From NCBI GenBank assembly GCA_032622095.1, contig CP136065.1, positions 55,857,949 to 55,921,948 on the forward strand: DNA of 64,000 nucleotides, given 5' to 3'. The translations under genes and the position numbers were made by a program. The notes below the pieces were generated by a model that did not search any database, was not told the DNA's origin, and saw only the letters and a program-made list of their open reading frames with translations. Shown here piece by piece: positions 10,386 through 62,518 of the stretch. Position 1 is the first letter of the stretch, and each line of letters opens with the position of its first letter. Source of the stretch: Siphonodentalium dalli. Lineage: Eukaryota > Mollusca > Scaphopoda > Gadilida > Siphonodentaliidae.

Positions 10386-10810
10386 GATTACTAGCTCATC
10401 AGTTTGATTCAATGAAACAAGCACACGATATGTAATTGTATTTTTGTGAAACTTCTCTATTAATACACGGCACATGTATGCACACAACAATAAGCCAATC
10501 GTTCATTAGCGACCTTCTATGAATCACGATGGTATCCGGGATTAGCAAAGGTGAACAACGCTGATTGGTTATTTGTCGGGTAATGCATATTCGATCGCAT
10601 TTTCTTATACCTGTTTATCTGATCATCTAAATTGATGTGACATAAATGTGTTTACCATTACGCATTTGCTAAATCGTGAAGTTATGTGCACATTTGTGTT
10701 CAAATTCATCGCGCAAAGGACCACCAACGAGGGGTGTCGAATAATTCCGAAACACAATAGAGTCAATAACACTGAAGTTCCTCTTGAAGCGATATCACCC
10801 ATGGTTAAGT

Positions 10811-11745
10811 GGCTCCTGCTGAATTGCTATAATGCTGGTGGGTCCTGCTGAATTGCTATAATGTTGGTGGATCCTGCTGAATTGCTATAATGTTGGTTGG
10901 TCCCGCTGAATTTCTACAATGCTGGTGTGTCCAATGTCCTGCTGAATTGCTATAATGCTGGTGGGTCCTTCTGAATTGCTATAACGCTGGTGGGTCCTTC
11001 TGAATTGCTATAATGCTGGCGGGTCCTTCTGAATTGCTATAATGCTGGTGGGTCCTTCTGAATTGCTATAATGCTGGTGGGTCCTTCTGAATTTCTACAA
11101 TGCTGGTGTGTCCAATGTCCTGCTGAATTGCTATAATGCTGGTGGGTCCTTCTGAATTGCTATAACGCTGGCGGGTCCTTCTGAATTGCTATAATGCTGG
11201 CGGGTCCTTCTGAATTGCTATAATGTTGGTTGGTCCCGCTGAATTTCTACAATGCTGGTGTGTCCAATGTCCTGCTGAATTGCTATAATGCTGGTGGGTC
11301 CTTCTGAATTGCTATAACGCTGGCGGGTCCTTCTGAATTGCTATAATGCTGGTGTGTCCAATGTCCTGCTGAATTGCTATAATGCTGGTGGGTCCTTCTG
11401 AATTGCTATAACGCTGGCGGGTCCTTCTGAATTGCTATAATGTTGGTTGGTCCCGCTGAATTTCTACAATGCTGGTGTGTCCAATGTCCTGCTGAATTGC
11501 TATAATGCTGGTGGGTCCTTCTGAATTGCTATAACGCTGGCGGGTCCTTCTGAATTGCTATAATGTTGGTTGGTCCCGCTGAATTTCTACAATGCTGGTG
11601 TGTCCAATGTCCTTCCGAATTGCTATAATGCTGGTGGGTCCTTCGGAATTGCTATAATGCTGGTGTGTCCAATGTCCTGCTGAATTGCTATAATGCTGGT
11701 GGGTACTGCTGAATTGCTCTAACTGACGGGTCCTGCTAAGTTGAC
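10811..11745. repeat. Minisatellite, 29-bp unit with 37-bp variant, ~30 copies
   Basis: Basic unit TTCTGAATTGCTATAATGCT + GGTGGGTCC (29 bp). A longer unit containing GGTGTGTCCAATGTCC sits near 10920, 11101, 11253, 11347, 11470, 11593 and 11659. The gaps (181, 152, 94, 123, 123, 66) differ by about 29, giving a higher-order pattern. Complementary single units occur at 12105-12170, so the array lies at one end of an inverted-repeat element. Confidence 0.95.
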
Positions 11746-37330: not shown

Positions 37331-38911
37331 TTACAAATAGAGAGGATGGAATATGACTACTGAAATATGGTGTTAATCACGTGTGTCCCTTTATAACAAC
37401 TCTCCCGTTTCGAATTCCAAGTTACGACTGAATGGCTAAGGCTACGTTCACACACGGCAATTTTTCCTGACAAAGTTTCGTGTAATCGTCGCAGTTGGCT
37501 ATCTATTGCATATTTACGTGAACAATTTAGGAGTGTTGTATTTATATATATATATCACATGAAACCTCTATAATATCATTGAAAAACCCATTACATATTT
37601 TCTTATCTGACACTATAGTGTGTAATCGCCACGTGCTTCCCGGGATACTTGGCATTGCGCCAAATAAATTACCGTGCGGATTAATACTATTTAGAAAAGC
37701 CGCGCTTGAAACCACTACCAGACAATGCAAAAATTATTGCTTTGTTCATTAAAGTTCAATTATTTTCCAACTTAGTTGAACTAAGGAAAATAGGCTCAAA
37801 AACAAAGAGACCAATTGGGGGACTATATGTTTCGTCGCAAGGCAGAACGCGCAATACTGTCGTATACGGTTGCGAAGCGTTTCAGCCAAAGCCGTGCTTG
37901 TAAGCATTTTACATGCATTTTTCAGCTTCTTTTAAAGATTTTGATTTGTTAAAAAGGCATAAACTCTAGTTTTTTTCATGTGATATACAAGATCTTCAAC
38001 TCGTTATGTTGGGATAAAAGATTATATGAAACTCGTTCCATAAAATCTTATATCCCAACATTACTCGTTGGAGATCCTCTATATAGTTAGGAAATGTCAA
38101 TAGTAATAGCGCAATTGATTCTTGATACTTGAATCAAAAGTTCGGGCAAATGTCGGTTGTGGAATCAATGTGGAACCAGATGTCTTACTTCTCTGTGCTT
38201 TTTATTTTTATTACTTGGTTTAAGGGTTTCCCTTCCCTAAAAAAAGTTGCTTGTAGAAAAAGAAATAAAATGCAATTCATGTTTTGATTCCCGCCGATGA
38301 GAATACTAATCCAGACACATAAAAATATATATCAGATATATAGGTTATGGTTGCATAAAATATACAACAATCGATCAAACAGTGAAGCCGTCTGGTGATG
38401 TTTATGGTACACTACAGCTCTAGTAATAGTATGTAAATTCACAAGGGAGACAACTATCTGGTTGTAGTTCCAAGATAGGAAGATAATTTCCAATGGATAA
38501 GTTGAAGATAATCGCAAACATGGCGGACCCCGATCTTGGCGATATTTTTCATATATCCGCCCCTTACTTTAAAGATATTTCCAAACCAAAAACTATATTT
38601 GTCCATGCAAGTTGACACGAGCAAAGCATATGCTATCTTATGGCTGCGTTTTAGACGAGATAATTTTACAGCTGAAATCTGCCAATAACAAATTATACCT
38701 ATTCTATTTAAATTGTTTCCCTCCCAACTCCCTACCTTTGAGCCAAAACAAATCCGTAAACAAAGTAATCATAATAAAATGCCGTATGAGTAAGCGATGC
38801 TGTAAGTGTATTAGTTCAATCGACGGTTCATATTCCAGAATACCATGGTTCTCCCCGAGATATAAATTGCCTGAAATTTTACCATAAAAATTTGCCATTG
38901 TGTGAACATTG
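37331..38911. other. No gene; one inverted repeat
   Basis: At about 37970-38080 GATCTTCAACTCGTTATGTTGGGATAAAAGATT-type sequence folds back on AATCTTATATCCCAACATTA. No exon recognised. Confidence 0.4.
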
Positions 38912-38921
38912 CCATAATAAC

Positions 38922-39263
38922 CCTGAAGGGGTCACTCTCACCACAAAAGTGCTGAAGGTAACACAGGTTTTTCAAAATGTGCTGAAGGGTACACAGGTTT
39001 TTCAAAATGTGCTGAAGGGTACACGAGTTTTTCAAAATGTGCCGAAGGGTACACAGGTTTTGAAATGTCGTTAGAGAATAATTGTTTACGTTCCAATGAA
39101 TATTAAAATGTACTGAAAACAAACTGCTAATGGATGCCAGACTTTCATAAACACAATTTAAGTAATGGAGTTCGTGCTGATCACAAACCCTGTGTACCCT
39201 TCAGCACATTTTCAAACCCGGTGTACCCTTCAGCACTTTTTTTGGTGAGAGTGACCCCTTCAG
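38922..39263. mobile_element. MITE with 10-bp target duplication and internal minisatellite
   Basis: Inverted ends CTGAAGGGGTCACTCTCACC (left, 38923) and its complement (right, to 39263) are flanked by the direct repeat CCATAATAAC (38912-38921 and 39264-39273). Inside, a 30-bp unit (TTTTTCAAAATGTGCTGAAG + GGTACACAGG) is repeated about four times on the left and about twice, inverted, on the right. A 9-10-bp duplication would fit a Mutator-like element. The frame with VFQNVLKGTQ repeats is not a gene. Confidence 0.88.
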
Positions 39264-39859: not shown

Positions 39860-40110
39860 TTTACCCTTTAATGAGATTCGTGACGGGACCTGTGCTGGTG
39901 GAGCATTAAATACCATGTGTTAGTGCATTCTCTTATATATGCCAATCTCCCATGGGGAGCCTCGCATATATAAGAGAATGTACTGGCTTACAATGTCAAT
40001 GTAAATATTGTTAAGCCAATGTATTTTCTTATATATGCAATGCTCACTATGGGTGACTTGCATATGTGAGAATGCATTGGCACAGGATTTTCACACAATA
40101 TCAGGGTTAA
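39860..40110. mobile_element. F2 TTAA element, ~250 bp
   Basis: ACCCTTTAATGAGATTCGTG, GTGCTGGTGGAGCATTAAAT, two family palindromes, and end ATCAGGGTTAA at 40110. The left TTAA is degraded. Confidence 0.75.
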
Positions 40111-41057: not shown

Positions 41058-41307
41058 TTAACCATTTCATGGCGAGAGCTGCGCTGGTGCATCATTAAAT
41101 ATCCTGTACCAGGTATTCTCTGATATATAATGCGAGTCTCACATATGGAGCCTCGCATATATAAGAGAATGCACTGGCTTATAAGGTCAAGCCAATATAT
41201 TCTCTTATATATGCGAGGCTCCCTATGGGAGTCTCGCATATATAAGATAATGTATAGGAAAATGGTTTTCGCAAAATATCAGGAAGCTCCAGTCATGGAA
41301 GGGTTAA
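41058..41307. mobile_element. F2 TTAA element, 250 bp, just 3' of the FGF stop codon
   Basis: TTAACCATTTCATGGCGAGA ... AGCTCCAGTCATGGAAGGGTTAA-type end, with TTAA at both borders and two palindromes (TGCGAGTCTCACATATGGAG and ATGCGAGGCTCCCTATGGGA centres). It ends 39 bp from the FGF TGA, so it almost certainly lies in the 3' UTR or the immediate 3' flank. Confidence 0.85.
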
Positions 41308-41346: not shown

Positions 41347-41886
41347 TCAAGTTCTCATTAGCAGCTGCTGACGTCTCTCCAACCGCTTTGTAAACATATG
41401 TTCGCACCGACGATCACGCAACCGCCCCTCCTTGAATTTTGCCCACTTCGATCGAGGACATCTCTTTTTTAAACGAATCCTCTTTCTTTTTTTCCTGTCT
41501 GTCCTGCAAGGGTCTTTTCTACAACGCCGGTTTTTAACCTTTATTTCGCATGTTCCTTTGCGCCTACAAGCACTACACCTTGTCTTACATGTTCTCCCTC
41601 TTGGATTCTTGCACCGACACATAAATTTCCTACGTAGGGGCGGTTCGGGTCGTGGCGTCCGATTATGGTTCGGCACAGAGGTAATAACGTCACCTTTGTT
41701 CACCAACACACAAGCGAAATATGCGAACCTCTTCTGTGTTGAACGAGTTTCACTAGCGTTTCGAACAGTTCCGTTCTTGTTCACTCCAAGGAAATATTTC
41801 CGCCTGTGATAGTCCATTGCGTGGTACGTCATCATTGTATTTGGATGAATTGATTCATTCCAACGACAAGCCGTGTCGTTATACAC
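41347..41886 (-). CDS. FGF-family ligand, last coding exon (trefoil C-half plus basic Cys-rich tail)
   Basis: Final coding exon, opened by a good acceptor (poly-pyrimidine, then CTTTTAG|GTG) and ended by TGA at 41349-41347; 179 codons, phase 0 at its start. The first ~60 residues match the FGF third exon: seven residues to the conserved Cys (VYNDTAC), then WNES, a TY motif, YFLGVNKNGTV, then TRSTQKRFAYF. These align with FGF9 elements YYVALNKDGT and the QK...HF heparin-site region. After that comes a tail of about 115 residues, dominated by Arg and Lys, with 10 or 11 Cys (for example MCRCKNPRGRTCKTRCSAC). Most FGFs end soon after the trefoil. The tail probably binds heparan sulfate, superficially like the VEGF heparin-binding domain; this is inference. 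Potential N-glycosylation sites are NDT, NES, NGT, NAS and NRT. The plus-strand frame over this exon is a shadow. Confidence 0.88.
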   Translation of the reverse strand: MYNDTACRWNESIHPNTMMTYHAMDYHRRKYFLGVNKNGTVRNASETRSTQKRFAYFACVLVNKGDVITSVPNHNRTPRPEPPLRRKFMCRCKNPRGRTCKTRCSACRRKGTCEIKVKNRRCRKDPCRTDRKKRKRIRLKKRCPRSKWAKFKEGRLRDRRCEHMFTKRLERRQQLLMRT

Positions 41887-42545: not shown

Positions 42546-44102
42546 CCGGAATGTAACTGACAAAGTTGCCCAGATGCACGACTCAGGCTACCATGATAGT
42601 ACAATCCCTATATATGTGTGGATAAAAAATTCGCGCTTATTTTGATTATACATATATAATCAGCTTTAACATTGCTGGGCGGCTTAATTTTGTATATATA
42701 ATGCGCCGTTCATCGTACCAACTTAGCCACCGAGTCCACATACACCCCAGTAGTACATAGAGGGTTTATTTGAAATAAATTATATACAATGGACATCATG
42801 TTTCCTTTAATATATGTTGTTGAAAAGTTATTGTTCCTTCAGCCATAACATCTCTGAAATAATATTTTTTTGCGGTAGAATTAAGGTCTCAGAAGACAAA
42901 AATCTCAGAATTTCCGTGGGAATTAACTGAATTAAATAGATTTTTTTTCATATACGTATAATTAACAGTTAGCATTTTTTTTTTCAATTCACATATATGA
43001 AAATTACTGAATTCCACTGATGTGCAATGGCACTACACGTTGGGGTGGGGGTAGTCAATTGAATTTTTTTTTCAAACGGACGGTTAAGATTTTAATTTGT
43101 TAGAAATTCGATTTGCACCAAAGTGTGAGTGGTAGATTTTTTTTAATTTTGGAGGTCGTCACCCCCCCCCCCCACCCGAACCCAAAAGCCTATATCTACG
43201 TCTATTGGGGTTTAACGCATTATATACTTACTCCACCGTATATGGTTCCGTCGGGTTTCACGCACAATGACAAATTGTTAGCTTTCGATGTGAAACCTAC
43301 AACCCCGTGGTGGCCAACGCTGTGCTTTATCAGTATGCCTGCAAGTGGAAAGAAAACGTATATAAAATGGGACTGGCTCAATTTTGTAATCACATAACTG
43401 AACTACCATACCTACATATATATTGCACTACATATATACAACAACAAAACTATCACCACCGCCTCCATCCACAACCACCATTATCAGAATCAGACAAAAT
43501 ATACTGATCGAAGTTTTTAAAGGTACAACAACTGAACTGACATGCACAATATCACTCGTTTCAAAAGTGGCATCCGAATATTTCATATAAACATCCACAT
43601 TTAAATTCTTATTCTCGTTTCAATTGGAAGGCAGTGAATCGTCAACATACTATTGCAAATGTTGCGAACAAAAATTGCAAATTAACAAGAAAATCGGCTA
43701 TCAATATTGCAAACGCACCAATAAATCGCAATCCAATAATGGTTCTCACTATATGCGGAGCATCAATTCATCAACAGCTCTGTCTGGTTCTAATCTCCCA
43801 TGGGGTGTTCTTATTTACTCGTATTATGGACGATTGTTTGGCTTCGTAATAGCTTCATATACTTATAAATATACCATGAGCTCAAGTACGCGTACACCCG
43901 CCTTTCAATTCCATCACCTGGATAATTTAACGAGCTTGGGGCTTGCCGTGCCGATTCCAATCACGTTCGGACGATTTGTTTCTCACATTGTCAATTTCGC
44001 TATCCTGACTGAAATGTCACTCTCTATCGGAGTGACACATCAGAAAATTTCAACAGAGTTTGGCATAAATTTATATTCAAATTTATTTTGGAAACGATGA
44101 TT
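42546..44102. other. Intronic, no exon recognised
   Basis: The plus frame of 158 codons at 43624-44100 is Ser/Tyr/Asn-rich with no domain I recognise. It ends where a repeat (AAGTTCAACAAAAGGCC) starts. Confidence 0.35.
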
Positions 44103-61686: not shown

Positions 61687-61948
61687 CATAAATTTGTTTC
61701 TGCTTGGAAGTTCCAACTGTTCCATTTCTATAAATCTCAAAAATAGGTCCCAGTCGGTTTATTAAATAAGTCTCTCTCGTTGACCTAGCGGAATAGGCAT
61801 AAGGTGTCGGGTTTACTCCCGGAACAATCTTTTTAAAATCAACTTGACTGCCAAATCCCTCCTGTGATTTGTGGCGACTAGGCGGTGGCATGGCACAAAT
61901 TCGCATGGAGACACAAAGAATCAAAAACGCATAACATAACCTTGTCAT
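61687..61948 (-). CDS. FGF-family ligand, coding exon 1 (signal peptide and first beta strands)
   Basis: First coding exon of a secreted fibroblast growth factor, an extracellular ligand for receptor tyrosine kinases. The ATG at 61948-61946 opens 87 full codons plus one base (phase 1). Residues 1-19 look like a signal peptide: a hydrophobic run CYAFLILCVSM, then RICA as a likely cleavage site. Residues about 58-87 match the start of the FGF trefoil: TYLINRLGPIFEIYRNGTV resembles the FGF9/16/20-type segment ending LEIFPNGTV. The exon ends at a strong donor (TATG|GTAAGT, intron from 61686). Upstream GTG codons extend the frame to 62005, but that stretch is better read as 5' UTR because the signal peptide starts at this ATG. 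NGT is a potential N-glycosylation site. FGF identity rests on short motifs plus the gene structure. The subfamily is inferred. Confidence 0.82.
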
Positions 61949-62324: not shown

Positions 62325-62518
62325 CTAGAGATCACAAAAACCCGGATAAATTATCCACAAGAAACCAAATTTGACCTAATTTATGTTAACACGTTCTTAT
62401 TTTTTATCTTGTAGACATAATCTGAGTTTCTTGTAGACATAATCCGAGTTTCTTGTAGACATAATCCTGGTTTCTTGTAGACATAGTCCGAGTTTCTTGT
62501 AGATACAATCCTGGTTTG
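62325..62518. repeat. Minisatellite, ~23-bp unit, ~5 copies, upstream of FGF
   Basis: Unit TTGTAGACATAATCCGAGTT + TCT, with variants (AATCCTGG, AGTCCGAG), follows a longer segment homologous to FGF intron 1. The minus frame with repeated STRNSDYVY comes only from the array. Confidence 0.9.

Follow-up and report, generated by a model that had tools for sequence, protein, structure and literature searches.

The FGF gene and its C-terminal tail

The minus strand of the window, the whole 64,000 nucleotide stretch of DNA that was analysed, carries a gene of three exons (61948-61687, 43338-43232, and 41886-41347) with a spliced product of 302 residues, which on its sequence is an FGF-family ligand with a trefoil. 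The coding part of exon 1 (61687-61948, minus strand) holds the ATG, a signal-like hydrophobic start, the N-terminal region, and the first trefoil strands, and its 3' boundary is TATG|GTAAGT, in phase 1. Residues 1-19 of the spliced protein are signal-like as judged from hydrophobicity alone. Exon 2 (43232-43338, minus strand, 107 bp) lies between a TTGCAG acceptor and a GGA|GTAAGT donor, in phase 0, and supplies the middle of the trefoil, ILIKHSVGHHGVVGFTSKANNLSLCVKPDGTIYGG, with the FGF match running through the exon. The acceptor of exon 3 is TTTTCTTTTAG, and the exon 3 frame (41886-41347, minus strand) is open for 179 residues before a TGA stop codon (41347-41349). The end of the trefoil (41692-41886, minus strand), VYNDTACRWNES...FACVLVNKG, covers Pfam FGF positions 72-123, and a tail of 114 residues (41350-41691, minus strand; residues 189-302 of the spliced protein) continues from it in the same exon and frame.

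The spliced protein matches Pfam PF00167 at 61.5 bits (E=1e-16, cut-off 24) over residues 67-179, corresponding to profile positions 11-123 of 124. Exon 3 alone matches the FGF profile at 32.5 bits, with the trefoil end as its first 65 or so residues, and has no match in NCBIfam. The separate frames of exon 1 and exon 2 have no Pfam match, and the FGF domain is therefore clear only after splicing.

The tail contains 44 Lys and Arg, 9 Asp and Glu, and 10 Cys, with a net charge of +35; the net charge of the 169 residues from Met20 to the start of the tail is +14. Eight of the ten Cys are clustered within 38 residues, from MCRC to DPC (41506-41619, minus strand), with the spacing C-x-C-x7-C-x3-C-x2-C-x5-C-x8-C-x4-C, and the only CXC in the tail is the opening of this cluster. 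The basic C-terminal part (41350-41505, minus strand) is predicted to be helical and carries two convertase-type motifs, RKKR at 254 and RDRR at 280 of the spliced protein. Of the seven N-glycosylation sequons of the protein, five are encoded by exon 3. A preliminary description of this DNA had proposed an FGF ligand with a long in-frame, Cys-rich, basic C-terminal extension, and both the Pfam match and the composition of the tail bear this out, as does the presence in the exon 3 frame of FMCRCKNPRGRTCKTRCSACRRKGTCEIKVKNRRCRKDPC, the motifs said to lie amid basic runs. The length of about 115 residues given there agrees with the tail, while the interval given, 41347-41660, spans about 104 codons and is slightly too short.

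Several repeats lie around the gene. A palindromic MITE-like family around TATATGCGAGGCTCCCTATG is present at 41142-41227 and at 17 further places in the window (19 matches in all, allowing up to 3 mismatches, where 0 are expected), one inverted pair being directly 3' of the FGF stop codon. A minisatellite with a 22 bp unit (62407-62517) precedes the FGF start codon by approximately 460 bp, and one with a unit of about 30 bp follows the gene, an inverted relative being close by (38944-39061 and 39184-39241). Elsewhere in the window there is a tandem array of about 30 copies of a 29-bp unit (10809-11737).

Genome setting and FGF subfamily

The genome totals 2.23 Gb, in 9 contigs. When it was searched with the Pfam FGF profile, 34 candidates were scored, of which 10 match at E up to 10 and two pass the cut-off, one being the window gene, on contig C5, and the other an exon on C2. 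Neither exon 1 nor exon 2 of the window gene is among the matches, showing that divergent FGFs can be missed by such a search. Six equal weak matches to the profile (E=9.5) at 34.28-34.29 and 35.30 Mb of C6, spaced about 4.5 kb apart as two triplets, one on each strand, form a tandem array and are probably not FGF.

Further exons surround the first on C2, and the joined part, which excludes the gene start, best matches FGF18 (8.7e-8); by this match the gene is FGF8/17/18-like. It has the same two intron phases as the window gene, 1 and 0, and a basic tail likewise follows its trefoil. That tail is, however, shorter (about 66 residues, net charge +10) and Cys-poor, with a single Cys, and it cannot be aligned to the tail of the window gene (P=0.54).

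In PDB the spliced protein of the window gene matches FGF9 and FGF1 best, tied at 2.9e-8. The product is best read as a secreted paracrine FGF, and is probably the member of the pair that is not FGF8/17/18, either FGF9/16/20-like or a fast-evolving FgfA-like ligand. One FGF8/17/18 and one FGF9/16/20 are reported for each of two brachiopods and one phoronid (PMC8180254), and nereids are reported to have one FGF8/17/18 and a fast-evolving FgfA (PMC8224027). The window gene would fit the second slot beside FGF8/17/18, as FGF9/16/20 or FgfA.

With a Lox5-type probe, 58 homeobox places were recovered from the genome. The best of these is on C7 and has 94% identity to probe residues 2-68, KLTGP end included; homeodomains of Lox2-, Lox4-, and Post2-like type are on the same stretch. 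We take the names of these Hox genes, and the spiralian meaning of the Lox5 signature, as given; on that signature the animal appears to be a spiralian. Profiles for haemocyanin, cuticle proteins, and hemerythrin gave no match in the genome; absence does not follow from this, and among 14 controls the haemocyanin and cuticle-protein profiles matched in 0 and the hemerythrin profile in 7. The spiralian-type Hox run, with Lox5, Lox4, and Lox2 types, extends over about 1.5 Mb (C7, 77.30-78.82 Mb), and within it two Antp-like homeoboxes with identical translated homeodomains are about 47 kb apart, perhaps through a recent tandem duplication.

Composition of the tail

All six Arg codons are used in the tail (AGA 7, CGG 6, CGT 6, AGG 6, CGA 2, and CGC 1, or 13 AGR and 15 CGN), so that its basic composition is not the by-product of a purine repeat. 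Chance tests were done on 117 residues, the tail together with NKG (45 Lys and Arg), with a threshold of 44 Lys and Arg. Under a third-order Markov model from local noncoding DNA 27 of 20,000 sequences stay open and 0 of 20,000 reach the threshold. A second-order model of the tail itself leaves 1.1% open, with 0.17% reaching 44, and a second-order model of exon 3 leaves 0.7% open, with 0% reaching it. The combination of 10 Cys and 44 Lys and Arg is found in none of the three null sets; 10 Cys by themselves are only mildly unusual, being reached by 1.1%, 6.1%, and 2.9% of the sets, and for the clustering of 8 of the 10 within 38 residues P=0.03. The antisense strand, too, has a fairly long open stretch (145 codons), and openness alone is therefore weak evidence; the case rests on the composition, with its mixed codons. 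By this measure the tail looks like selected protein.

A query of 102 tail residues against the genome has itself as the sole match, which gives no sign of a repeated module, and the best ungapped self-pairs within the tail have a raw score of 30, a figure without a null. Against Pfam there is nothing of note (best E=4.5), and against PDB there is no match at E up to 10.

Binding and retention

How far an FGF spreads decides what is patterned by it, and this is commonly set by contacts of the trefoil with heparan sulfate. With a net charge of +35, binding of the tail to heparan sulfate is a natural inference, yet specificity for heparan sulfate is not implied, as such a tail would bind any polyanion. 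The heparin motif XBBXBX is absent from the tail and XBBBXXBX occurs in it once. We give about an even chance to the tail being a lineage-specific module with no origin in VEGF, one that by binding heparan sulfate or another acidic matrix retains the secreted FGF near its source. The Cys cluster would be folded by disulfides. Whether there are 13 or 14 Cys in the mature protein is set by the position of the signal cut, which makes the pairing uncertain.

In models made from the single sequence, with no alignment (mean pLDDT 52.4 and 61.6), the Cys cluster has no predicted fold (pLDDT 39-44 in 10-residue blocks), and helices are predicted over the last 40-50 or so residues, with pLDDT of 74-93 in 10-residue blocks of about the last 40. 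These helices are the only confident part of the models and, coming from a prediction without an alignment, are weak evidence. A fold search with the tail model returned one meaningless match (E=8).

In the PDB alignment the stretch KKNGSCKRGPRTHYGQK of the FGF1 variant 3fj9, which we take to be the heparin loop of FGF1, its residues presumably having that role, faces NKNGTVRNASETRSTQK of the window FGF. About half of the basic positions of FGF1 are kept in this loop and one is reversed to Glu, and the sequons N161 and N166 are in the facing stretch. With a loop of this kind it is plausible that matrix binding has passed from the trefoil to the tail, and the tail may assume some of the heparan sulfate contact in place of the loop. 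Cleavage at a polybasic stretch, possibly RKKR, could alter how firmly the ligand is held. The fuller proposal is that anchoring has moved to a new disulfide-folded polybasic tail, that the trefoil heparin site is weakened and has two glycans over it, and that proteolysis acts as a switch between an anchored and a mobile ligand; as a whole this is speculative and rather unlikely to be correct. In Drosophila the export of Bnl needs heparan sulfate, and the site studied is in the FGF domain and not in the tail (PMC13041799), which speaks for the usual site in the trefoil.

Alternative explanations for the tail

The tail could instead be mainly a propeptide or inhibitory domain that is removed by furin-type convertases, leaving an ordinary short FGF as the active ligand. 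The motifs RKKR and RDRR, with further basic runs, are consistent with this, and there are precedents in Drosophila Ths and Pyr, which undergo cleavage, with an inhibitory tail in Ths, and in vertebrate FGF23, whose C-terminus is lost (PMC2923630). Basic runs would, however, be expected in any tail of this composition, and both R-x-[KR]-R sites are C-terminal of the Cys cluster, so that cutting there leaves 8 of the 10 tail Cys on the ligand. A tail that is mainly a propeptide or inhibitory domain is rather unlikely.

A tail under little constraint, drifting in sequence, without a specific role, and tolerated for being basic and soluble, would agree with the lack of any match in the genome other than itself, of a family match, and of an alignment to the tail of the C2 gene. 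Drift does not readily account for a frame open over 114 codons, for so extreme a share of basic residues drawn from mixed codons, or for the clustering of the Cys, and appears improbable.

The tail might also be absent from most of the protein made, if alternative splicing or early polyadenylation makes a tail-less FGF the main product, with the long frame confined to a minor isoform. A scan of exon 3 for donors found two candidates with a score of at least 1.9, one at 41694 (AAG|GTGACG, score 3.0), at the trefoil end, and one at 41589 (score 3.6). The modelled donors score 6.5 and 2.0, and both candidates exceed the donor of exon 2. There is an AATAAA at 41545, inside the tail, whereas downstream of the gene the first is at 38212, with one ATTAAA at 39872. 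Given the two donor candidates and the distance to a downstream AATAAA, the 3' end of the gene is to be regarded as predicted. Against a tail-less product are the protein-level signature of the tail and the lack of an acceptor with a strong pyrimidine tract in 41346-38000, by a strict pattern that may miss real ones; such a product as the main form seems decidedly improbable.

That the basic tail serves an intracellular pool as a nuclear localisation signal, to which the dense Lys and Arg runs would be suited, is very improbable, as the signal-like N-terminus, the seven N-glycosylation sequons, and the Cys-rich composition suit a secretory product.

Almost no credence can be given to the tail being a true VEGF-type heparin-binding (silk homology, or BR3P) domain gained by exon shuffling, as it lies in the same exon as the end of the trefoil and its resemblance to such domains is within chance. 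There is a local resemblance of CRCKNPRGRTCK to CSCKNTDSRCK, but the alignment score of 46 to the heparin-binding domain of VEGF-A165 is reached by 14% of 2000 shuffles (P=0.14; P=0.18 when the shuffles keep the Cys positions fixed). BR3P domains are marked by CX10CXCXC repeats (PMC10328876). The strict form CX10CXC is uninformative, being absent from the window FGF and also from the VEGF-A165 sequence used as control; the looser C-x(8-16)-CXC occurs twice in that control and is absent from the tail and from the whole protein. No VEGF family is among the Pfam matches of the tail or of exon 3, and the PDB search, at E up to 10, is likewise without a match. Homology of the tail to VEGF is rejected on these grounds, and the likeness to VEGF heparin-binding domains suggested in the preliminary description does not extend to kinship. 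On the genome 34 candidates were scored with the VEGF_C profile; 13 of them match weakly, the best at E=0.518, and none passes the cut-off.

Comparison with known systems

If the tail does retain the ligand, a spiralian would provide a natural example of a ligand that itself carries the control of its range, convergent with the VEGF isoforms; anchoring moved from trefoil to tail would, if true, parallel the VEGF retention domain without common ancestry. Should the tail prove unconserved or spliced out, it would be a minor curiosity of a fast-evolving FGF. The heparin-binding domain of VEGF-A165 and the BR3P silk homology domain are also basic, Cys-rich, and C-terminal in a growth factor, and differ from the tail described here in the Cys pattern and in the absence of significant similarity.

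The ligands of the FGF9/16/20 and spiralian FgfA groups are alike to the window FGF in its best PDB matches, FGF9 and FGF1, and in the two-FGF sets. They differ in that a basic Cys-rich tail is not mentioned for them in the portions of PMC8180254 and PMC8224027 that were covered, the main text of the latter containing neither the term C-terminal nor the term cysteine. Among the matches listed from the open-licence literature, by titles and the starts of abstracts, none is on point for a Cys-rich FGF tail in spiralians.

It had been stated that FGFs ordinarily end soon after the trefoil, which is misleading, as Drosophila Thisbe, Pyramus, and Branchless have 748, 766, and 770 residues (PMC2923630). 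In these, as in the window gene, a long C-terminal stretch with multibasic motifs comes after the FGF domain. As described there, both Ths and Pyr undergo processing; the tail of Ths limits the range of the ligand, its removal extending the range of action, while that of Pyr does not. The Pyr tail has repeats and low complexity, whereas the tail of the window FGF is 114 residues, Cys-rich, and basic. The basic Cys-rich tail is thus unusual in detail, yet tails on invertebrate FGFs are already known.
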